The notes beneath the pieces are model-generated. The model saw nothing but the letters and a program-made list of their open reading frames with translations, ran no database searches and was not told where the DNA came from. The translations under genes were made by a program, and so were the position numbers. Positions 30 to 15,627 of a stretch of 64,000 nucleotides of DNA are shown here, piece by piece (positions within the stretch are counted from its first letter, which is position 1; the number at the start of each line of letters is the position of its first letter). The DNA comes from Sphingomonas sp. SUN019 (lineage in GTDB: Bacteria; Pseudomonadota; Alphaproteobacteria; Sphingomonadales; Sphingomonadaceae). Location of the stretch: NCBI RefSeq assembly GCF_024758705.1, contig NZ_CP096971.1, positions 2,757,501 through 2,821,500 of the forward strand, written 5' to 3'.

Positions 30-395
30 CTATTTGTGATGATGGCCGGTTGCCCGCGGGTCGCATCCGCAATTCTGGTGGTAGCCGTTCTCATCGAAGC
101 GGACGATCGTCGTCTGCGCGGTCACGCCCGCCAGCTCCAGCTCGCGTTTCTTCATCGGGCGCACGAGATGCTCGCGACGATCCAGATCGGTCGTCTCCAT
201 CATGATCTCGTCGTCGCCCAGATCGAAATGGTTATGAATCAGCGCGATTCCGAATCGATCAAGACAACCGTGTTTCTCAAGGACGGCGCGAACGTCATCC
301 AGACACGGCGCATCGATATCGTCGATCGGCTTCACATCGGCAATATGCTCCAGGGTCTTCCACTGAATCGCGGATACATGAACAGTCATAGTCAT
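30..395 (-). CDS. Unrecognised small soluble protein
   Basis: A 121-residue protein I do not recognise. It has no signal peptide or membrane segment, is rich in acidic residues and His, and ends in a Cys/His cluster (HQNCGC followed by a His-rich tail), which might bind a metal; that is inference only. A GGAG Shine-Dalgarno sequence lies a few bases before the ATG; a second ATG two codons later is also possible. It lies downstream of the MFS and TauE genes on the same strand, with a 122-base gap, so co-transcription is possible but not shown. A longer open frame on the other strand over the same bases has low-complexity composition and was not chosen. Confidence 0.6.
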   Translation of the reverse strand: MTMTVHVSAIQWKTLEHIADVKPIDDIDAPCLDDVRAVLEKHGCLDRFGIALIHNHFDLGDDEIMMETTDLDRREHLVRPMKKRELELAGVTAQTTIVRFDENGYHQNCGCDPRATGHHHK

Positions 396-517
396 CTCCG
401 TCGCTTAGAGTTTGTGGAACGCACGCGACATACGCGCGGGATGACGCCCGAAACATCCAACCTGAGTGGATCAGATCGCCCGCATCACGGCAAGGTCACC
501 CTGTCGGCGCATATGGG

Positions 518-1276
518 TCAGGCGTAAGCACGCCAGAAGAACACGGCGGTCGTCGCCGCGGTCACCAGCAGCGTCCAGATGCGCACCGCGGGGGCGGGTA
601 GGCGTTTTCCCGCATGCGCTCCGAGCCAGCCGCCGAGCAGGCCACCGACCAGCATCGCGGCGCATAGCCCCCACACGATCAGTCCGGCCCAGATGAAGAC
701 GATCGCCGCGGCGGCATTGGCCACCGCCAGCATCAGCGTGCGCGGGGCGAATAACGCGCGGGGCGTGATCCCGGCGAGCAGGCCGTAGAGCGCGGTCGTC
801 ATCAGCCCGACGCCGCCGCCGAAATAGCCGCCGTAGATGCCGAGCAGGGTCTGCATGACGACCAATGTCCGCGCGCCGATCGTGACGCGCTGCGCCAGCC
901 AATCGGCGGCGGTTTTCCCCAACAACATCGCGACGAAAGCGAACAGCAGGAGCCACGGGATAATGAGGTCGAACGCGCGGGTCGGGGTCATCACCAGCAG
1001 GGCCGATCCGGCCAGCCCGGCGACAAAGGTGATCCCGGCGAGCACGCGCACGTCGATCCCCGCGACGGGGCCGAGTTCGTCGCGAAACGCCCACGCGCTG
1101 GTCGCCGCGCCGGGGAGCAGTGCTACATTGCTGGTCGCGTTGGCGGTGTTGGCGGGCAGGCCGAGCGCGATGAGTACGGGAAGCGTCGCGAAGGTGCCGC
1201 CGCCTGCGAGCGCGTTCATCGCCCCGCCGATCAGGCCTGCACCGGCGGCGAGAGCGATAGCGGCGAGTTCGATCAT
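518..1276 (-). CDS. TauE/SafE (TSUP) family membrane permease
   Basis: Inner-membrane permease of 252 residues with about eight hydrophobic helices, the usual size for this family. Two inverted-repeat-like halves are visible: an N-terminal glycine motif (GGAMNALAGGGT, about residues 17-28) and a second one in the middle (GGYFGGGVGLM). The family moves small anions such as sulfite, sulfoacetate or other organic acids across the inner membrane; the substrate here cannot be read from the sequence. It follows the MFS transporter gene after 41 bases on the same strand, so the two are probably one transcription unit. The short C-terminus ending FFWRAYA is normal for the family. Confidence 0.85.
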   Translation of the reverse strand: MIELAAIALAAGAGLIGGAMNALAGGGTFATLPVLIALGLPANTANATSNVALLPGAATSAWAFRDELGPVAGIDVRVLAGITFVAGLAGSALLVMTPTRAFDLIIPWLLLFAFVAMLLGKTAADWLAQRVTIGARTLVVMQTLLGIYGGYFGGGVGLMTTALYGLLAGITPRALFAPRTLMLAVANAAAAIVFIWAGLIVWGLCAAMLVGGLLGGWLGAHAGKRLPAPAVRIWTLLVTAATTAVFFWRAYA

Positions 1277-1317
1277 CGCAGCGCCTATAGGGACCGATCC
1301 GCGGCCCCGTCATGCGC

Positions 1318-2601
1318 TTAATCGAAGATTCGTTCCCCCGTCCCCCACGCGAACCAGACCGCCGCGCCGACCACGTTCACGCCCGCGGCGACGATGAAGG
1401 TCGCGGTATAGCCGCCGGTCAGGTCGAGCAGCAGCCCGGTCGCGGCGACGCCGATGATGCCCGGCAGCGTGCCGGCGGTATTGGTGATGCCCCACAGGAC
1501 ATCGGCATGGCGCGGCGCGATATCGAGATGGTTGGTCGCGAACCCCGCGAAGCTGAGCGCGCCGACGCCCAGCGCACCACACATGCACAGCAACGCGACG
1601 CCGGGCGTGGCGGCCTGCGATGCGGCGAGGAAGAACGTCGCGCTGCCGAGCAGACCGACGCACTGCATGAAGCGGCGTACGCGCGTGATGTCCGCACCGC
1701 GCGCGATCAGCCGGTCGGCGACCACGGCCGCTGCATTGCCGACGACGAATTGCGACACCCACGGCCCGATCGCGAACAGCCCCGACCCGGCGACCGACAG
1801 CCCCTGCACATCGCGAAAGTAGCTCGGGAGCCATGCGAGCATCAGGTAGAGCGTCCAGTTGGAGCAGAAATGGTTGATGATGAGCGCCCAGACCGCGGGG
1901 TGCGACAACAGGCGTCGCCACGGGATCGGCAGTGATGCCGCGCCCGTGCTTGCCTCCAGCGGGGCGAGCAGGTCGCGTTCGGCCGCGCTAATCGTCGGAT
2001 GCGTCGCGGGGCGTTGGTGGATCAGACGGAACCACAACAGCGCGAAGACGATGCCGAGGCTGCCGAACGCGTAGAATACGCTCGGCCAGCCATAGGTCGC
2101 GATCAGCCAGCCGGTGGTCGACAGCGCGAAGATCGTGCCGATCGGAATGCCGGTCAGGTTGATCGCGGCGGCGCGCGATTTCTCGGTGGTGGGCACCCAG
2201 CGCGCGAGGAGATTGTAGACCGAGGGGAAGCTGGCGGCTTCGCCGATCCCCATCAGGATGCGCGTGGCGATCAGCGCGGCGAAGGACAGGCCGGCGGCGA
2301 TCGGGGTCAGGAAGGTGAAGAGCGACCACGCGAGAAGCGCGATCCCCAGCAGGCGGCGTCCGCCGTAGCGGTTGGCGAGCCAGCCGGTCGGGATCATCGC
2401 CGCCATGTAACCGATGAAGAACGACGACAGGACGAAGCCCTTGGTCGTCCCCGACCAGCCATATTGTTCGGCCATCGGGATGATCGCGACCGAGATGTTG
2501 ACCCGGTCGATGTAGCAGATGAACGTCGCGATCGCGCACATCGCGACCAGGATGTGGCGCTTGGCCAGACGGCCGCTCATCGTGTTGGCGGCGGTCGCCA
2601 T
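1318..2601 (-). CDS. MFS transporter, anion:cation symporter-like
   Basis: A 427-residue major facilitator superfamily transporter with twelve predicted helices. The loop between helices 2 and 3 carries a degenerate MFS motif (GWLANRYGGRRLLG), and the N-terminal CYIDRVNISVA stretch is typical of the ACS family, which imports carboxylates such as sugar acids or phthalate-like compounds with protons. I chose the ATG at 2601 because GGAGGGGACAGG lies just upstream of it; an in-frame extension to 2658 lacks such a site and adds a non-hydrophobic tail. It heads a probable unit with the TauE-like gene. The substrate is unknown. Confidence 0.88.
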   Translation of the reverse strand: MATAANTMSGRLAKRHILVAMCAIATFICYIDRVNISVAIIPMAEQYGWSGTTKGFVLSSFFIGYMAAMIPTGWLANRYGGRRLLGIALLAWSLFTFLTPIAAGLSFAALIATRILMGIGEAASFPSVYNLLARWVPTTEKSRAAAINLTGIPIGTIFALSTTGWLIATYGWPSVFYAFGSLGIVFALLWFRLIHQRPATHPTISAAERDLLAPLEASTGAASLPIPWRRLLSHPAVWALIINHFCSNWTLYLMLAWLPSYFRDVQGLSVAGSGLFAIGPWVSQFVVGNAAAVVADRLIARGADITRVRRFMQCVGLLGSATFFLAASQAATPGVALLCMCGALGVGALSFAGFATNHLDIAPRHADVLWGITNTAGTLPGIIGVAATGLLLDLTGGYTATFIVAAGVNVVGAAVWFAWGTGERIFD

Positions 2602-2674
2602 GCCTGTCCCCTCCCGTTGTTTGAGGGAGGGTAGAACGCACCGCACGTGCCTGTGCAAGCGCGGATCGCGAAGT

Positions 2675-3895
2675 CTAGCCGAGCGCGGCGAGCTTTTCCT
2701 CGGCCTGACGATCGAGTTCGGCGCGCGACTTCTTTTCGCTCGCGGTCTTCAGCTGGCCGCATGCCGCATCGATGTCGCGGCCTCTTGGCGTGCGGACCGG
2801 GGCGCTGATGCCGGCTTCGAAGATGATGCTGCTGAACGACTTGATCCGGTCCGGCGTCGAGCATTCGTAGGGCGCGCCCGGCCACGGATTGAACGGGATC
2901 AGGTTCACCTTGGCGGGCAATTTATAATGGCGGATCAGGCGGACGAGTTCGCGGGCGTCGTCATCGCTGTCGTTCTTATCGCGCAGCATCACATATTCGA
3001 AGGTGATGCGGCGCGCGTTGTTGGCGCCGGGGTAATCGGCGCAGGCCTGCAGCAATTCCTCGATGCCGTATTTGCGGTTCAGGGGCACGATCTCGTCGCG
3101 TACCTCCTTCGTCACCGCGTGGAGCGACACGGCGAGGTTGACGCCGATCTCCTCACCAGCGCGCGCCATCATCGGGACGACGCCCGAGGTGCTGAGCGTG
3201 ATGCGGCGCTTGCTGAGCGCGAGGCCGTCGCCGTCCATCACCAGTTTCAGCGCATCGCGGACGTTGTCGAAATTGTAGAGCGGTTCGCCCATGCCCATCA
3301 TCACGATGTTCGTCAGCATCCGGCCTTCGGGCTGGCTGGGCCATTCGCCGAGGCCGTCGCGCGCGAGCATGACCTGGCCGACGATCTCGGCCGGATTCAG
3401 GTTGCGGACCAGCCGCATCGTGCCGGTGTGGCAGAAGCGGCAGTTGAGCGTGCAGCCGACCTGACTGGAGACGCACAATGTCCCGCGATCAGCGTCGGGG
3501 ATGAAGACCATTTCATAGTCCTGGCCGTCATCGCTGCGCAGGAGCCATTTGCGTGTGCCGTCGGTCGACACCTGCGCCTCCACCACCTGCGGGCGGCTGA
3601 TGACGAAGCGTTGTGCGAGCCACGGCTGCATCGTCTTGGCGATGTCGGTCATCAGCGAGAAATCGGTGACGCCGCGGTTGTAGATCCAGTGGAACAGCTG
3701 TTTCGCACGCAGCTTCGCCTGTTTCGGTTCGAGCTGCGACGTCTCCAGCGCCATGCGCAGATCGTCCTTCGACAGGCCGAGCAGGTCGATGCGACCGTCG
3801 CTGCGCGGGGCGAACGAACGCGCCACGGGCACGGGATCGAAGTGCCCCGGAATGGGCATGTTGGCGGCCGCTGCTGTATGCATTCGCGGGCACAT
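2675..3895 (-). CDS. rlmN: 23S rRNA (adenine-2503-C2)-methyltransferase RlmN
   Basis: Radical SAM enzyme that methylates C2 of A2503 in 23S rRNA and A37 of some tRNAs. With the start used here the radical SAM motif C-x3-C-x2-C is Cys148, Cys152 and Cys155 (CTLNCRFC); the two methyl-transfer cysteines are Cys141 and Cys379 (DAACGQL), all conserved in the family. Length (406 aa) is normal. The start is uncertain: ATGs at 3895, 3883 and 3859 are in frame and none has a clear ribosome-binding site; the 3859 start (MPIPGHFD) matches the N-terminus I recall for sphingomonad RlmN. Its stop lies 73 bases from the MFS start. Confidence 0.95.
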
Positions 3896-7969: not shown

Positions 7970-10411
7970 ATGCGGAATTTTCAGGCGTCGAGCGCACTGG
8001 CGTTGCTGATGGCGACTGGTGCGGTGCCGGCCGGTGCGCAGGCGTTGTCGGCCGACGAGGCGTCGACGACGGATGCAGCGCTGCGCACCGAAACTCTAGA
8101 TCGGGCGGAACCTTTGGGCGGAGAAGTGACCGTCACAGCGCGGCGGCGGGCGGAAGATGCGCAGCGCATTCCGGGATCGCTTTCGGTAGTCGGGGGCGAC
8201 CTGCTCGACCGGTCGTACACCGTGAACACCCAGCAATTGGCGCAACTGGTCCCCGCGCTGAACTACAGCTCCGCCAATCCGCGCAACACCGCGTTCACGA
8301 TCCGCGGCTTAGGTAGCAGTGTGGTGGCCGTCAGCCAGGCGAACGACGGACTGGAGCCGGGCGTCGGCTTTTACGTCGATCAGGTCTATCATGCGCGTCC
8401 TGCGACCGCGGCGTTCGACTTCAGCGACATCGCGCAGGTCGAGGTGTTGCGCGGGCCGCAGGGGACGTTGTTCGGCAAGAACAGCACCGCGGGCGCGATC
8501 AACATCACGACGCGCGCGCCCAGCTTTACGCCAGAGGCCAGCCAGGAGTTTTCGGTCGGGAGTTTCAATTTCGTCCAGGCGCGGGTAGCAGCCTCGGGGC
8601 CGTTGTCGGGCGATACGCTGGCCGGGCGAATTTCCGCGGTAGTGACGCGGCGCGACGGCGTGATCGACAATGTGAATACCGGACGCGCTCACAACCAGAT
8701 CGGCAATCAGGCGGTGCGCGGGCAGTTGCTGTTCAAGCCGAGCGACGCCGTGCAGGTGAAGCTGAGCGCCGATTTCACCAATTTCCAGAGCAATTGCTGC
8801 ACACAGGTGTTCTACCGCGTGGCGGGGCGCGATGTGCCGCGCACCGCGACGCGGCAATATGGCGGGCCGACTGGTCTGGCCGCGCAATTCGGTTATGCCC
8901 CGCCGAGCACCAACCCGTACGATCGTCTGACCGATATCGACGCGCCGCTCGGCGTCGACACCAACGAGGGCGGCGTCGGCGGGATCGTCGACTGGAATCT
9001 GGGCGGCGCTACGCTCACCTCCGTCACCGCGTGGCGCTTCTGGAACTGGGATGCGGCGAACGACCGCGATTACACCGGCATACCGATCCAGCTGGAACAG
9101 CATATTCCGTCGCGGCAGGATCAATACAGCCAGGAACTGCGGCTGGCGTCCAACGGCGACGGCCCCGTCAGCTATGTCGGCGGGCTGTAGTTCTTTCGTC
9201 AGCGTGTGATCGGACGGCCGATCTCGATCTATGGCCCCGCCGCCGCGCGCTATCTGATCGGCACCAGCGTCACCACCGGGACCGCGCCCAACCAAATCGT
9301 GACCCCCGTGCCGGGCAATCTGCTCGACGGGTACGGGACCGACGGGCGGACCGATTTCCGGTCGGACAGCTACGCCGCGTTCGGCGAGGTCAATTGGCGC
9401 CCGATCGACCGCCTGACGCTGACCGGGGGGTTGCGTTATACCTATGAGGAGAAGGAAGGAACGTACGATACGTTCGTGTTCGGCGGGCGGGCGACCACCA
9501 ACACCGCGCTGATGAACGCGAAGCTGTCGATCCTGCGGCCGCAGACCTATGCCGCCAGTGACAAGGACGGCGACGTGACCGGACGCGCGAACGTCTCGTA
9601 CCAAATCACCGACGATATCCTCGGCTACGCCAGCTTTGCGCGGGGCGCGAAGTCGGGCGGGATCAACATGTCGGGGCTGCCGCTGAACGACCAGAATCAG
9701 CCTGCGATCGGCACCGCCGTGGTGCGCCCGGAACAGAACACCGCCTATGAGATCGGGCTCAAGACGCGATTGTTCGACAACCGGCTGATCTTCAACATCG
9801 ATGGCTTCTATACCCGCGTCACCGATTTCCAGACCAACGTCAGCGACACGCGCGCGGCGGCGGCGCTGCGCACCTATCTGGCCAACATCCCGCGCGTCAC
9901 GGTGAAGGGGTTCGAGGCGGATGCGATCGCGATGCTCACGCGCGATTTGTCGCTGCGCGCATCGGTGGCCTATGCCGACGGTGAATATGCAGATTATCCG
10001 AGCGGCCCGTGTCCGATCGAGCGGATCGGCAATACCGCCGCGGCATGCGACCTGAGCGGGGTGGGCCTGCCCGGCCTGCCCAAATGGTCGCTGACCGCGG
10101 GCGGCGATTACGCGCTACCGCTGTCGGGGCCTGGCGGAGAGGTACTGCTTCATGCCGACGCGGTCGCGAAGACGCGGCAACTGGGCGACCCGACCGGATC
10201 ACGCTTCACGACGATCGGCAGCTATGCGCTGGTCAACGGCAGCATCGGTTTTCGCAGTGCACAAGGATGGGAACTGGCGGTATTCGCGCGCAACCTATTC
10301 GACCGCGACTATATCCAGAATGTGACGATCCAGGCGGGCAATTCGGGGCTGATCCTGGCGACCCCCAGCGACCCGCAGACAATCGGCGTGACATTCCGCG
10401 CGCGACAGTAA
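7970..10411 (+). pseudogene. TonB-dependent receptor interrupted by an amber codon
   Basis: A TonB-dependent outer-membrane receptor of 814 codons including its final stop, split by an in-frame TAG at 9188-9190. Before it: signal peptide (about residues 1-24), a TonB-box-like EVTVTA, a plug domain with QVEVLRGPQGTLFGKNSTAG, and the first barrel strands. After it the same frame continues without another stop through the barrel (SYAAFGEVNWRPIDRLTL, LGYASFARGAKSGG) to the natural end. Reading through gives YVGGL-x-FFRQ, where homologues usually have Tyr, so TAG probably arose from TAT or TAC by one base change. A GAGGGGG site precedes the ATG. Gene context (Mop, ModE-like protein, operator) suggests a molybdenum-related substrate. 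Loss of function, a sequencing error or amber suppression all remain possible. Confidence 0.9.
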
Positions 10412-10456
10412 TTGCGCTCTTCCCAGTCTCGTACGAACCAATACGGTTATTTTTGC

Positions 10457-10493
10457 TTGACAGCGCGACGCTATTCCGGTACATAACAGGAAT
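10457..10493 (+). promoter_or_regulatory. Sigma-70-type promoter with overlapping LexA-like box
   Basis: TTGACA (10457-10462), a 17-base spacer and TACATA (10480-10485) form a strong consensus promoter pointing at the GTA remnant genes. Overlapping the -10 is GTAC-N7-GAAT (10479-10493), which differs by two bases from the alphaproteobacterial LexA box GAAC-N7-GAAC. An ATTCC/GGAAT inverted repeat (10473-10493) frames the same region. The promoter call is firm on spacing; regulation by LexA is inference. Confidence 0.6.
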
Positions 10494-10546
10494 GCTGAAG
10501 AATTGCGGGTCGGTGGCGGCGCGGGTTTGGCGGGGCGGGGGGCGAG

Positions 10547-11086
10547 ATGGGAGAGACGATCACCGGGCTGATCACCGGACCTGCCGGGCGGCGGAAGATG
10601 CGGACGCCGGGGCCTTTGCATTTCACGCTGAAGCGCCGGCAGGCGTTTCTGGATGCGCTGGCGCTTACCTGCAACGTGCGCAAGTCGGCCGATTTCGCCG
10701 GGATCAAGGATTCGACGATCTACCGCACGCGGCGTGACGATCCGGTATTTGCCGCGCAGTGGCAGGCGGCGCTGGAGATGGGGTACGACCGGCTGGAGGC
10801 GCTCGCGCTGGAGCATGGCGGGGCGGCGATGCCGATCGAGCCCGACGCGGACCGCGCGGTGGAAGCGGGGGCCGATCCCGCGCCGTTCGATTTCGACAAG
10901 GCGTTGCGGCTGCTGACCTTTCACCGCGCGGCGCGGCAGGGTCAGCGCGCGACGCCGAGGGGCGGCGCGCCGTTGAAGAACATGACGCGCGAGGAAACGA
11001 ACCAGCTGCTGCTGAAGGCGTTGGCGGCGGCGAAGAAGCGCGTCGAAAAGGCGCAGGTCAGGGAGCAGAGGGCGCGTGGCGAGTAG
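10547..11086 (+). CDS. Small-terminase-like helix-turn-helix protein of the GTA locus
   Basis: A 179-residue protein with an N-terminal helix-turn-helix (FLDALALTCNVRKSADFAGI then DSTIYRTRRDDPVFAAQW, about residues 33-72), the arrangement of phage and GTA small terminase subunits that start DNA packaging. The rest is a charged, partly helical segment ending in a Lys/Arg/Glu-rich tail (KALAAAKKRVEKAQ). It sits directly before the large-terminase start, the usual place of GTA gene 1, and overlaps it by 11 bases. Since the large terminase is destroyed here, it can no longer package DNA in its original way; it could still bind DNA. An alternative is a generic phage-type DNA-binding protein. Confidence 0.6.
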   Translation: MGETITGLITGPAGRRKMRTPGPLHFTLKRRQAFLDALALTCNVRKSADFAGIKDSTIYRTRRDDPVFAAQWQAALEMGYDRLEALALEHGGAAMPIEPDADRAVEAGADPAPFDFDKALRLLTFHRAARQGQRATPRGGAPLKNMTREETNQLLLKALAAAKKRVEKAQVREQRARGE

Positions 11087-11297
11087 GCGGGCGCGGGGCG
11101 GCTCCGACCGGCAGATACTGGACGCGTTCATCGCGCTGCCGCCGGCCGAGCAGGTGCGCGTCATGGAAACGTTGCCCGCGAGCGGCTTGCGCGAACTCTA
11201 CAAACGCTGGCCGTGGTGGGCGCATGACCGAGGGCTGCGACAAGAGCGTCGCGACGTGTGCGGGGCGTTTTGCGAATGTCGCCAACTTTCGTGGTGA
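11076..11297 (+). pseudogene. N-terminal remnant of GTA large terminase (gp2)
   Basis: The first about 50 codons match the start of sphingomonad GTA terminases: LPPAEQVRVMETLPASGLRE followed by LYKRWPWWAHD, which in intact genes leads into a GRGFGKT Walker A region. Here the similarity ends at about 11223, and the frame then runs through unrelated out-of-frame codons (Cys/Arg-rich) to a TGA at 11295. All ATPase and nuclease motifs are missing. The GTG start at 11076 overlaps the preceding gene by 11 bases, the normal phage-type arrangement. The 73-residue open frame is therefore a broken gene, not a new small protein. Confidence 0.75.
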
Positions 11298-11346
11298 GCC
11301 GTATCTGCCGGGGATCGACCTGCTGACGCGGTATCCGGGCGCGTGA
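11224..11346 (+). pseudogene. C-terminal remnant of GTA gp13 (DUF2163 / BR0599 family)
   Basis: In a different frame from the terminase remnant, the 40 codons from 11224 read TEGCDKSVATCAGRF and then ANVANFRGEPYLPG to LLTRYPGA before TGA. This is the characteristic Cys-rich end of DUF2163 proteins (GCDK..ATC..RFAN..NFRGEPHLPG..LLTRYPGA), the gene that precedes gp14 in GTA clusters. Only the tail survives; everything between the terminase start and this point, normally about ten head and tail genes, is absent. The stop overlaps the next ATG (TGATG), the original arrangement, so the right side of the deletion is otherwise undisturbed. Confidence 0.75.
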
Positions 11347-11747
11347 TGCGGGAGGAACGCGTTGTCGCGGCGGCGCGGGGCGTGGTCGGGGTGCGGTTCC
11401 GGCTGCAGGGGCGCGATCCTGCGTATGGGCTGGATTGCGTCGGGGTCGCGGCGGTGGCGCTGCGGGCGGGGGGTTATTCGGGGCCGGTTCCCGAGGGCTA
11501 TGCGCTGCGGACCGGGGCGTTCGATGACGAGGTGTGCGGATTGGCCGCGTGCAACGGCGATCGGGCTGGCGATCTGCTGCTGTGCCGGGCTGGGCCGGGG
11601 CAGTTGCATCTGGTGGTGCTGACCGGCGCGGGCTTCGTCCATGCCGATGCAGGGTTGCGGCGGGTGGTCGAGCGGCCGGGGGTCGTGCCGTGGCCCGTGA
11701 TGCGGGCGTGGCGGATCGATGAAGGGGACGATTTATGGCGACGCTGA
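11346..11747 (+). CDS. GTA gp14-type NlpC/P60 cell-wall peptidase
   Basis: A 133-residue NlpC/P60 cysteine peptidase of the phage/GTA tail type, which opens peptidoglycan during DNA entry. The catalytic Cys is in YGLDCVGV (about residue 33) and the His in GQLHLVVL. The N-terminus (VVAAARGVVGVRFRLQGRDP) fits gp14 proteins. It starts by TGATG overlap with the gp13 remnant and overlaps gp15 by 13 bases. The reading frame and active site look intact even though the structural genes upstream are deleted, so it is either a recent orphan or kept for another use. Confidence 0.8.
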   Translation: MREERVVAAARGVVGVRFRLQGRDPAYGLDCVGVAAVALRAGGYSGPVPEGYALRTGAFDDEVCGLAACNGDRAGDLLLCRAGPGQLHLVVLTGAGFVHADAGLRRVVERPGVVPWPVMRAWRIDEGDDLWRR

Positions 11748-13873
11748 TCCTGACGACCGTGGGGGGCGTGCTTGGCGGGCCGATCGGCGCGGCGATCGGG
11801 GGGCTGCTGGGCGTTGCGGCCGATGGGCGATTGCTGAAGCCGAAGGGGCGGCAAGGGCCGCGGTTGACCGAACTGGCGGTGCAGACATCGTCCTATGGAT
11901 CGCCGATCGCGAAGATCTTCGGGACGATGCGCGTGGCGGGGACGGTGATCTGGGCGACCGACCTGATCGAGACGCGCGAAAAGCGCAGCGGTGGGAAGGG
12001 GCAGCCTTCGACGACGACATATAATTATGCGGCGTCGTTCGCGGTCGCTTTGTCCGGGCGGCCGGTGCGGTCGGTCGGGCGGATCTGGGCAGAGGGGAAA
12101 TTGCTGCGCGGGGCGGCGGGGGACTGGAAGGCGACGACCGGGTTCCGGCTGCACTCCGGCGGTGAGGATCAGGCGGTCGATCCGCTGATCGCGAGCGCGG
12201 AGGGGATTGGCCTCGCCCCGGCGCATCGCGGCATCGCCTATGTGGTGTTCGAGAATCTGGCGTTGGCGGATTTCGGCAACCGCATTCCGTCGCTGACGTT
12301 TGAGGTGGTGGCGGACGATGCGCCGGTGGCGATCGGGCGCATTGCGCGCGAAATTGGCGACGGGGTTGTGACCGGCGAGGGGCCGGGCGCGAGGGTCGAC
12401 GGCTTTTCGGCGTATGGCGATGGTGTGCGAGGGGTGCTGGAGACGCTGGCGGAGGCGTCGGGGGCGTGGTTCGCGCCGGTCGGCGATACGCTGGCGATGC
12501 GGAGCGATGTGGGCGCGACCGTTGCGGTGGAAGATGCCGGGACCGGTGGTGCGCGGCGGATGCGGACGATCGCACCGCTGGAGACCGTGCCGTTGAGCGT
12601 GTCGGTGGCGCATTACGATCCGGCGCGCGACTATCAGGCCGGGGTGCAGCGCGCGCGACGGCCGGGTACGGGAATGCGCGCCGAAGCGGTCGAGATGCCC
12701 GCGGCGCTGTCTGCCGATGCGGCGAAGACAATGGCCGAGGCGATGCTGGCGCGGGCCGAGGCTGTGCGGGTGCGGCGGCGCGTGACGACCGACGTGTCGG
12801 CGCTGGGCATCGGTCCGGGCGACGGGGTGACGATCACCGGGGAAAGCGGCGTGTGGCGGGTGCGCGAGGCGACGCTGGAGAAGATGGCGGTGACGCTGGA
12901 ACTGACGCCGGTCGTTGCGGCGACGCTGCCTGCGACAGCGAGCGGCGGGCGGGTGCTGGGTGCGCCGGATGCGGCGATCGGGACGACGATCGTCCATGCG
13001 TTCGAGACGCCTGCGCTGGGTGACACCCTTCTGACCGTGCCGCGACTGACGATCGTCGCGGCGGGGAGCGAGCCAGGCTGGCGGCGTGCGGCGTTGCTCT
13101 ACAGCCTGGATGACGGCGTGACGTGGATCGCCGCTGGCGGAACCGCGGCGGCGGGGACGATCGGGATCGTCGTGTCACCGCCGGGCAGTGGATCGGCGAC
13201 ACTGGTCGACCGCTTTAACACGATCGAAGTCGAGCTGGCGCATGAGGCGATGACGCTGGAAAGCGCCGATCCGCCCGCGATCGACCGCGGCGCGAACCTG
13301 GCGCTGGTCGGCGACGAATTGCTGCAGTTCGAGCTTGCGGAGCCGATCGGCGCGCGGCGTTGGCGGCTGTCCGGCCTGTGGCGCGCGCGGCGCGGGATGG
13401 CGGGCGCGCCGCCGGGCGCTGGTGCACGGTTCGTACTGATCGAGGCGGACAGTTCGCTCACCTTGCCGGTGGACGTGACGCCGGGTGCGACGATCCGCGT
13501 GATGGCGAGCGGGGCGGGCGATACCGGCGGCGCGGCGGAAACGATGGCGGTGATGACCGGCGCGTCGATCCTGCCGCCCGCGCCGGTCGGGCTGACCGCG
13601 CTGCCGACCGCGGACGGCGGCGCAATGCTGCGCTGGGCGCGGCGCAGCCGGATCGGCTGGCGCTGGAGCGACGCGGTCGACGCGCCGCTGGGCGAGGAGC
13701 GCGAGGCTTACCGCGTGACGATCGCGCCGGCGGCTGGCGCTGCGCGGACGATCGAGACGGTCCTGCCCGAGACGATGCTGACCGCCGGCGAGCGAGCGGG
13801 CGGACCGGTTGCGATCACCGTCCGGCAGCTCGGGACCAACGGGGAATCGCCTGCGTTGAGCGCGGCGATATAA
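11735..13873 (+). CDS. GTA gp15-type phage tail hub/fibre protein
   Basis: A 712-residue tail protein. The N-terminus (TVGGVLGGPIGAAIGGLLGV, residues 9-28) followed by RLTELAVQTSSYGSPI and KIFGTMRVAGTVIWATDL is the hallmark of GTA gp15 and phage baseplate hub proteins. Later segments contain the phage-tail hub domain (about 230-400) and fibronectin-like strands near the end. Rhodobacter gp15 is much longer because it carries a TIM-barrel glycosidase domain; none is seen here, and as I recall sphingomonad versions are shorter. The frame is open throughout. GGGGA lies before the ATG. With head genes deleted it cannot serve a DNA-filled particle. Confidence 0.82.
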   Translation: MATLILTTVGGVLGGPIGAAIGGLLGVAADGRLLKPKGRQGPRLTELAVQTSSYGSPIAKIFGTMRVAGTVIWATDLIETREKRSGGKGQPSTTTYNYAASFAVALSGRPVRSVGRIWAEGKLLRGAAGDWKATTGFRLHSGGEDQAVDPLIASAEGIGLAPAHRGIAYVVFENLALADFGNRIPSLTFEVVADDAPVAIGRIAREIGDGVVTGEGPGARVDGFSAYGDGVRGVLETLAEASGAWFAPVGDTLAMRSDVGATVAVEDAGTGGARRMRTIAPLETVPLSVSVAHYDPARDYQAGVQRARRPGTGMRAEAVEMPAALSADAAKTMAEAMLARAEAVRVRRRVTTDVSALGIGPGDGVTITGESGVWRVREATLEKMAVTLELTPVVAATLPATASGGRVLGAPDAAIGTTIVHAFETPALGDTLLTVPRLTIVAAGSEPGWRRAALLYSLDDGVTWIAAGGTAAAGTIGIVVSPPGSGSATLVDRFNTIEVELAHEAMTLESADPPAIDRGANLALVGDELLQFELAEPIGARRWRLSGLWRARRGMAGAPPGAGARFVLIEADSSLTLPVDVTPGATIRVMASGAGDTGGAAETMAVMTGASILPPAPVGLTALPTADGGAMLRWARRSRIGWRWSDAVDAPLGEEREAYRVTIAPAAGAARTIETVLPETMLTAGERAGGPVAITVRQLGTNGESPALSAAI

Positions 13874-13886
13874 AGGAGACACCACG

Positions 13887-14390
13887 ATGAGCGACGACCG
13901 ATCGGCACGGCTGGACCTGCCGCAGCTTCATGCGGGACAAGCGCAGAAGGAGACGACGCATAACGAGGCGCTCGCGCTGATCGATCTGGCGGTGCAGGCG
14001 GCGGTGGTGGCGGTGGGCGTCGATACGCCGCCGTCCGGCCCCGCGCCCGGCGATTGCTGGATCGTGGGACCGGGGCCGGTCGGGGCGTGGGCCGGGCGCG
14101 CCAGCGCGATCGCGGGGTGGACGGCGGGCGGCTGGCGCTTCGTCGCGGCGCGGGAGGGGATGCGCGCGTGGAGCGTCGCCGATGGCGTGGACGTGCGGTT
14201 TGCCGCAGGCGCATGGCGTGCCGGCGACGTTCCGGTGGCGCGGTTGCTGGTCGACGGCGTGCAGGTTGTCGGTGCGCAACAGCCCGCCGTTCCGCCTCCG
14301 ACCGGCGGCGCAACCGTGGACGCCGAAGCGCGTGCTGCAGTCGCCCTGATGCTCACCGCATTGATCGAACATGGATTGCTGGCGTCCTGA
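13887..14390 (+). CDS. DUF2793 protein of the GTA tail locus
   Basis: A 167-residue DUF2793 protein. The N-terminal LDLPQLHAGQAQKETTHNEA is the family signature, followed by PAPGDCWIVG and WTAGGWRFVAAREG. Such proteins lie at the end of GTA and prophage tail modules and are thought to form spikes or fibres that touch the host surface. An AAGGAG site stands before the ATG, 13 bases after gp15. The last 40 residues form a low-complexity stretch (PPPTGG) and a short helix. It is the last gene of the remnant; a 115-base gap separates it from ompA. Confidence 0.8.
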   Translation: MSDDRSARLDLPQLHAGQAQKETTHNEALALIDLAVQAAVVAVGVDTPPSGPAPGDCWIVGPGPVGAWAGRASAIAGWTAGGWRFVAAREGMRAWSVADGVDVRFAAGAWRAGDVPVARLLVDGVQVVGAQQPAVPPPTGGATVDAEARAAVALMLTALIEHGLLAS

Positions 14391-14505: not shown

Positions 14506-15627
14506 ATGCGGAAGCTTGCCGTAGTTATGGCGCTTGCGTCCACCGCACTGGCTTCGCCCGCCTTGGCGCGCGATAATGCTTGGTACGTTGGTGCAGAATT
14601 CGGCGGTATGATCGTCGAAGATATCGATTACGACATTGCGGGCACGACTGCCGCGACGTCGGGTCAGGGAATTCTGAACAGCGATTACGGCTATGATGCC
14701 GATGGCGTGATCGGATATGATTTCGGCGGGTTCCGCATGGAAGCCGAAGTCGCCTATAAGTCGGCTGATGTCGATGGTTATGCGTCGTCGACCGTGACGC
14801 CGTTCAACACCGGCACCACGACGCAGAATGCGCCGGCCGGCACGTACAATCAGGCTGGCGGCCGTTCGACCGCGCTGAGCTTCATGGTCAATGCCATGCT
14901 CGACTTCGGCGATGACGACGGCATTCAGGGCTTCATCGGCGGCGGCGCCGGTGTGGCGCGGGTCAAGACCCGCATCGCGCTCAACCAGCGCGGAAGCTTC
15001 CTGAACGATTCGGACACCGTGTTCGCATATCAGGGCATCGCCGGCGTTCGCGCTCCGATCACCGACAACATCGACGTCTCGCTGAAGTATCGCTTCTTCA
15101 ATGCGCAGGACGTGAAGCTGGTCGACTTCCTGAACCGCTCGTTCGAGTCGCGGTTCCGGTCGCACAGCATCCTGGGTGGCGTGACCTACAACTTCGGCGA
15201 ACCGGAAGCTCCGCCTCCGCCGCCGCCGCCGCCGCCTCCTCCGCCCCCGCCGCCGCCGCCTCCGCCCGAGGTGGTCTGCTCGCCGGGTCCGTTCATCGTG
15301 TTCTTCGAGTGGGACAAGTCGGACATCACCCCGGAAGCGGCGTCGATTCTCGACAACGCGGTCACGCAGTACCAGTCGTGCGGCAACGCGCAGGTCATGC
15401 TGGCCGGCCACGCCGACCGTTCGGGTGCGGCATCCTACAACGTGGGTCTCTCGCAGCGTCGTGCCGACGCGGTGAAGGCGTACCTCACGTCGAAGGCCAT
15501 CCCGGATGGCGTGATCTCGACCGAAGCGTTCGGCGAAAGCCGTCCGCGCGTCGATACCGCCGATGGTGTGCGCGAAGTACAGAACCGTCGCGTGGAAGTC
15601 ACTTACGGTCCGGGTTCGGGCCAGTAA
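14506..15627 (+). CDS. OmpA-family outer-membrane protein with long proline hinge
   Basis: A 373-residue OmpA-type protein linking outer membrane and peptidoglycan. Signal peptide MRKLAVVMALASTALASPALA (shown in part: residues 1-20, cleavage before RDNAWYVG), an eight-stranded barrel to about residue 233 ending GVTYNFGEPE, a hinge of 19 consecutive prolines (236-254), then a peptidoglycan-binding OmpA domain with the motif VMLAGHADRSGAASYNVGLS and a QNRRVEV end. The barrel holds surface loops rich in Ala/Thr. GAAAGGGGA precedes the ATG and a strong hairpin terminator follows, so it is probably transcribed alone and highly. The proline tract is coded by mixed CCG/CCT/CCC codons. Confidence 0.93.
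   Translation: MRKLAVVMALASTALASPALARDNAWYVGAEFGGMIVEDIDYDIAGTTAATSGQGILNSDYGYDADGVIGYDFGGFRMEAEVAYKSADVDGYASSTVTPFNTGTTTQNAPAGTYNQAGGRSTALSFMVNAMLDFGDDDGIQGFIGGGAGVARVKTRIALNQRGSFLNDSDTVFAYQGIAGVRAPITDNIDVSLKYRFFNAQDVKLVDFLNRSFESRFRSHSILGGVTYNFGEPEAPPPPPPPPPPPPPPPPPPPEVVCSPGPFIVFFEWDKSDITPEAASILDNAVTQYQSCGNAQVMLAGHADRSGAASYNVGLSQRRADAVKAYLTSKAIPDGVISTEAFGESRPRVDTADGVREVQNRRVEVTYGPGSGQ

Follow-up and report, generated by a model that had tools for sequence, protein, structure and literature searches.

When a cluster of phage-type genes is left with little more than its two ends, are the surviving genes leftovers of a recently broken machine or have they been kept for another use? This question is raised by a locus of Sphingomonas sp. 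SUN019, analysed here within a stretch of 64,000 nucleotides (the window; contig NZ_CP096971.1, positions 2,757,501 to 2,821,500) of a complete 3.81-Mb genome that consists of one contig and is 100% complete. Positions 10547-14390 of the window contain a gp1-like gene, the start of the terminase gene TerL, the end of gp13, and the open genes gp14, gp15 and DUF2793. The locus is what one internal deletion has left of an RcGTA-like head-tail cluster, i.e. of a gene transfer agent (GTA). The most probable history, to which a probability of about 0.72 is assigned, is a recent loss of GTA production through this single deletion, with the open genes being leftovers of a young event.

The deletion and the genes on its two sides

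In the full cluster of a relative (locus L041), the genes from gp1 to OmpA span about 14 kb in the order gp1, TerL, portal, capsid, connector, tail tube, gp10, tape measure, gp12, gp13, gp14, gp15, DUF2793, OmpA. In the window, the 50 residues encoded at 11076-11225 align with the TerL starts of 85 full clusters (best local score 92, compared with a maximum of 58 among 300 peptide shuffles); Pfam and NCBIfam give no identification for this short piece. The adjoining stretch, 11224-11343, encodes the C-terminus of the Phage_BR0599/DUF2163 family (PF09356, E 3e-13, profile positions 50-80 of 80; TIGR02218, positions 219-255 of 266), i.e. of gp13. When the ends are placed by eye against relatives, the TerL homology extends to 11228 (W-A-H-D) and the gp13 homology begins at 11225 (TGACCGAGGGCTGCGAC), and the two pieces lie in different frames. 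The alignment to full clusters, which had been proposed in a preliminary description made from the sequence alone, thus places both ends of the deletion at 11225-11228 and bears out the homology to TerL and DUF2163 claimed there, with the terminase start running into a DUF2163 end in another frame.

The genes to the right of the junction are full open frames at the coordinates given in that description (Table 1), and gp14-gp15-DUF2793 ahead of the OmpA gene is a position conserved in the genus. In the alignment, gp14 has the LDC and H stretches common to its relatives. The gp15 protein, encoded by a single copy in this genome, matches the NCBIfam model GTA_megatron with E 7e-110 and 368 bits, under the model cut-off of 800, and the full relative L041 scores 383. 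DUF2793 is treated as a tail fibre in the available passages of PMC10883770. The preliminary description can be extended on the left, where 10547-11086 is a separate open reading frame (ORF) ahead of TerL that corresponds to gp1. We take gp1 to be the small terminase.

Table 1. Features of the remnant cluster and its right-hand neighbour (window coordinates)
Feature	Position	Strand	Evidence
gp1-like gene (GTA cluster gene 1)	10547..11086	+	tblastn vs gp1 of L041, residues 18-85, 53%; same place in many relatives
TerL, N-terminal ~51 codons, remainder deleted	11076..11228	+	alignment to TerL starts of full clusters
Deletion junction, 4-nt overlap TGAC common to TerL and gp13	11225..11228	+	comparison with relatives, by eye
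gp13, last ~40 codons (baseplate hub, DUF2163/BR0599), frame differs from TerL	11225..11346	+	PF09356, TIGR02218
gp14, NlpC/P60-like tail-tip peptidase, open, 134 codons	11343..11747	+	weak NLPC_P60 match, E 0.054; alignment with relatives
gp15, megatron-type baseplate protein, intact, 712 codons	11735..13873	+	GTA_megatron; 61-64% to nearest relatives
DUF2793 gene, intact, 167 codons	13887..14390	+	PF10983, E 4e-27
OmpA-family gene, conserved right-hand neighbour of cluster	14506..15627	+	OmpA match in 138 loci (beside L031) and 51 further loci

Genes missing from the genome

The genes that lie between TerL and gp13 in full clusters had been described as absent, and a search of the whole genome agrees with this for those that were sought. 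No portal gene was found with a model that matched 4 of 14 control genomes, no TerL elsewhere in the genome with one that matched 108 of 121 genus genomes, no capsid gene with a query that matched 237 of 295, and no gp12 in a search that had no control genome. For the tail tube there is no credible match (best E 0.07, compared with 5e-67 in the control genome G048 and 6e-81 in the query's own genome, G061). The protease, the connectors and the tape measure are gone from the locus, the rest of the genome not having been searched for these three. Judged by gene content, the window cluster would neither build a GTA particle nor package DNA. Available passages of PMC10883770 call a cluster near-complete when it has 14 of the 17 cluster genes; the locus has four open genes plus the TerL and gp13 pieces, and the genes that it does have are homologous to those of RcGTA-like clusters, with both their order and their chromosomal site conserved.

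Two explanations can be weighed on these observations. A tailocin or lysis device made from the remaining tail genes, the latter an option raised in the preliminary description, would be in keeping with a weakly peptidase-like gp14 and a baseplate protein, gp15. A tailocin encodes tail tube, tape measure and baseplate together, but here the locus retains neither a tube nor gp12 nor a tape measure (the last sought in the locus only), and the genome has neither a gp12 match nor a credible tail tube, which leaves such a device very improbable. An assembly or sequencing artefact that mimics a deletion is just as hard to credit: only one genome of the species was found, but it is a single, 100% complete contig, the searched genes occur nowhere else in it, and deletions of this kind are present in many separate assemblies.

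Loss of GTA clusters across the genus

A search of 295 genus genomes with gp15, capsid and DUF2793 yields matches in 256, 237 and 269 genomes, respectively. With cut-offs chosen by the analyst (gp15, E 1e-140; capsid, E 1e-100; tables transcribed by hand), gp15 and capsid are both strong in 191 of the 295 genomes and neither is in 55. Strong gp15 occurs without strong capsid in 27 genomes (18 with no capsid match and 9 with a weak one), and strong capsid without strong gp15 in 22 (10 with no gp15 match), some of these 22 being contig breaks or frameshifts. Given that losses are seen on both the gp15 side and the capsid side, the clusters break from both ends; neither the difference between the 18 and the 10 genomes without any match (p 0.18) nor that between 27 and 22 (p 0.57) is significant.

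Close reading was applied to 136 regions, most of them picked among the highest-ranking gp15 matches, so that the headless share among them is no rate; the unselected counts are those of the 295-genome searches. Adding the window and one named record gives 138 loci, of which 85 are full, 26 headless and 13 partial, while contig ends truncate the other 14. One of the loci classed as headless, L090, belongs to a genome (G347) that nevertheless has a strong capsid match; the genomes of the other 25 have none. Some headless loci retain gp13-gp15 (L081, L094, L108, L120) and others have lost part of gp15 (L118, L165, L167), with deletion ends falling within gp15 as well as ahead of it. An automatic rule finds at least one join in 55 of the 87 headless, partial or remnant loci examined. 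Internal deletions of this cluster are thus numerous among the relatives, and the GTA loss in the window is best read as one of many separate losses in the genus.

Selection on the remaining genes

The idea that the tail-tip genes are kept for another use, offered in the preliminary description beside recent inactivation, amounts to recruitment of the gp14-gp15-DUF2793 module, or of DUF2793 alone, for a cell function such as adhesion or envelope remodelling, with selection acting in the absence of a particle. It draws on the observation that gp15 is intact in 21 of the 26 headless loci and constrained there. The ratio dN/dS was estimated for each tip branch with a codon model of our own that has no site variation, keeping the rest of the tree fixed and taking branch lengths, after scaling, from a nucleotide tree; deep tips are saturated in these estimates. 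For gp15, the value is 0.116 (0.108-0.125) in headless loci (n=21; 0.115 for the 20 without L090), 0.120 (0.115-0.125) in full clusters (n=82) and about 0.10 in the window. Simulated addition of 40 neutral changes to each headless gp15 gives 0.141 (0.132-0.151), outside the observed interval, and 20 changes give 0.128 (0.119-0.137), on tips whose lengths correspond to about 300-3,000 neutral changes per gene, or roughly 0.4-4.3 per codon. Because 40 added changes already exceed the observed interval, gp15 has drifted freely for at most a small part of these branches.

Such low values could reflect either function or the youth of the deletions, and as proof of function they were rejected since truncated copies are nearly as low. 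For the 16 gp15 3' stumps whose junction was seen, the value is 0.152 (0.132-0.176), compared with 0.140 (0.133-0.149) for full clusters, the intervals allowing a slight rise; a stricter set of 11, to which the 16 add five, gives 0.145 (0.123-0.172), and an earlier group of 19 'stumps' (0.134) also included contig-cut, locus-cut and frameshifted copies. It follows that low dN/dS fits young deletions at least as well as a new use, and the stumps favour youth as the simpler reading. The dN/dS comparison that had been suggested thus returns low values for gp15 and DUF2793 across the genus and, with gp15 stumps behaving nearly alike, does not demonstrate function. The neighbouring OmpA gene has values of 0.111 in headless, 0.122 in remnant and 0.115 in full loci, and the control group of OmpA genes in contig-cut loci reaches 0.159 against 0.115, so that group values may differ for other reasons.

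DUF2793 gives 0.149 in headless loci (n=25), 0.181 in genomes with weak or no gp15 (n=42), 0.168 (0.155-0.181) in full clusters (n=83) and, among the 42, 0.189 (0.166-0.217) for the 29 that lack gp15 or have a verified stump of it. In the window (13887-14390) and the loci L169-L219, there is little or no relaxation of selection on this gene. This, along with its presence in 269 of the 295 genomes, including 21 of the 39 genus genomes without a gp15 match, could speak for recruitment. In all 51 loci L169-L219, DUF2793 adjoins OmpA, and its persistence may reflect a separate role or mere protection by this neighbour. Nearness to OmpA alone may spare the gene, the gp15 stumps are nearly as 'constrained' as intact copies, gp15 is cut by deletion ends in many genomes, the 18 to 10 excess of gp15 under equal criteria is not significant, and in one recurrent deletion, junction C below, DUF2793 remains without its N-terminus. 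Taken together, these points make recruitment of the tail tip unlikely, though distinctly less so than a lysis device.

Recurrent deletion junctions

Three junctions (positions in codons) occur more than once among the relatives, in separate lineages and with hardly any homology between the ends that are joined: A joins portal ~121 to gp12 ~732 (L081, L094, L108, L120), B joins capsid ~312 to DUF2793 ~22 in seven genomes (L173, L174, L176, L177, L178, L181, L182), and C joins portal ~96 to DUF2793 ~25 in five (L179, L180, L183, L184, L188). The junction of the window is none of these. In the OmpA tree, neither the A, nor the B, nor the C set forms a clade; the C lineages L183 and L179/L180/L184 share one OmpA clade. 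Within A and within C, the joins of all members coincide to 1-2 nt, as do those of L174, L176 and L177 in B, where L182 is a few bases off and the other three are not resolved. Among 47 events, collated by hand from 64 joins (sisters merged, unclear joins dropped, members of a junction group given the same codon numbers, and L174 and L177 counted apart despite weak independence), 24 pairs share both ends within 6 nt, and one-sided coincidences number 39 and 25, compared with 1.3 and 2.1 expected under uniform ends, a crude null.

Several candidate causes were rejected. In-frame fusion as a selected feature is incompatible with junction C, in which the truncated DUF2793 is out of frame with the portal piece in all five genomes. 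Repeats of the REP type do not account for the deletions, as REP-like cores lie within 250 bp at only 9 of 64 junction neighbourhoods, and none at that of the window; one such repeat sits at junction L068. As an observation in its own right, REP-like GC-rich inverted repeats are frequent between the GTA genes of full loci (e.g. TerL-portal, capsid-gp6, TMP-gp12 and gp12-gp13) and rarer within most genes. Ku-dependent end joining finds no support either: Ku, found in 261 of 295 genomes, is absent in 10 of the 104 genomes that lack a strong match to capsid, to gp15 or to both, and in 24 of the 191 with the two (p 0.57; the 10 and 24 were taken from the table by hand). Within the stretches compared, direct repeats fare no better: at A, the longest exact common word is 10 nt in one of five relatives and lies off the junction base, at C the longest is 7 nt, and at B there is none of at least 7 nt in six relatives. 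At L085, by contrast, a 9-nt word common to portal and gp14, CTGCACGGC (identified by eye), may underlie the junction. Spread of one deleted allele between species was likewise rejected, as the genes flanking the A junctions are closer to other loci, often full clusters, than to one another; those of L120 are closest mostly to L085 and L074.

It is conceivable, albeit doubtful, that sequence-directed internal deletions repeatedly cut GTA clusters across Sphingomonas and join identical bases in separate lineages, that non-producers arise often enough to be present in a large minority of the species sampled and are purged before their leftovers decay, and that the window is one such case. If so, the balance between cheaters and purging could be measured by counting strains. 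Among the papers listed on GTAs in Sphingomonadales or Sphingomonas, on their selection, losses and remnants, and on DUF2793, none mentions recurrent junctions in its title or abstract opening. The base-exact recurrence hints at a cause of breakage that is not named in the available passages and listings.

A history for the window locus

Under the preferred reading of a recent loss, a single internal deletion, whose size is put at about 10 kb from L041, would have fused TerL codon ~51 to gp13 codon ~228 and taken the rest of TerL, portal, protease, capsid, connectors, tail tube, tape measure and gp12 out of the locus. The genes gp1, gp14, gp15 and DUF2793 show no decay, and they would look intact because the deletion is young relative to the age of the species. 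Available passages of PMC10883770 present GTA production as a good of the whole population that cheaters can exploit, and suggest that pseudogenised clusters may belong to recent cheaters. The window deletion would fit this published idea, in which 'cheater' genotypes without GTA production keep appearing but are short-lived. We infer that the deletion is young, that the remaining genes serve no present function and that selection is behind the loss; more broadly, the data suggest that most GTA losses in the genus are young. The 'recent inactivation of GTA production' of the preliminary description is consistent with searched genes that occur nowhere else and with undecayed neighbours, recency being its conjectural part.

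Four points weigh against this history. No second strain of the species was found, the DUF2793 protein being represented by one sequence on one contig, so that youth is estimated across the genus rather than measured in the species of the window. In the OmpA tree, the window groups, with low support (0.42), with three headless genomes whose junctions differ, G081, G089 and G021, which could mean an older loss followed by later deletions. Retained function would likewise give low dN/dS. Finally, gp15 is kept more often than capsid (27 genomes compared with 10, p 0.008) when the criteria are unequal and weak-capsid genomes are counted, a contrast that also favours recruitment of the tail tip.

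A locus from which the packaging half has been cleanly removed while the rest is undecayed offers a way to measure the frequency of GTA loss and the lifetime of the losers. How a trait that kills its producers persists is an open question for GTAs, on which the recurrent losses in this genus bear.

Neighbouring genes and other observations

To the left of the remnant, at 7970-10411, lies a TonB-dependent-receptor-like gene (family assigned by eye) that is split by one in-frame stop at 9188-9190. In L041, the one locus scanned, a 'non-contractile tail sheath' N-domain and TIM barrel precede gp12 (DUF2460) in one fused gene (positions 10395-12800; PF23844, and PF23845 with E 4e-163), and tblastn covers nearly the full length of this fusion in other full loci. 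An IMG/VR contig of 10441 bases that is filed as viral (L224) encodes a gp15 61% identical to that of the window; going by this match, a GTA cluster may have been classified there as a virus.

Comparison with known systems

According to the available text of PMC9836097, about half of the members of several orders, the Sphingomonadales among them, have the cluster in varying states of conservation, and a sphingomonad prophage reported in 2017 by Viswanathan and co-workers is classed as GTA-like in that of PMC6821227; parts of the genus survey may already have been published in that 2017 work. The window shares with the sphingomonad version of the RcGTA-like cluster of Alphaproteobacteria the order gp1, TerL ... 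gp13-gp15, DUF2793 at one conserved chromosomal site, and differs in lacking the whole stretch from TerL codon ~51 to gp13 codon ~228. As with the pseudogenised GTA clusters described in the available passages of PMC10883770, particles could not be made; unlike these, the window has a single internal deletion flanked by open genes and belongs to a genus-wide set with recurrent junctions. With a defective prophage remnant it has in common the leftover phage-type tail genes, but such a remnant is a strain-specific insertion, whereas that of the window sits at a GTA site common to much of the genus.

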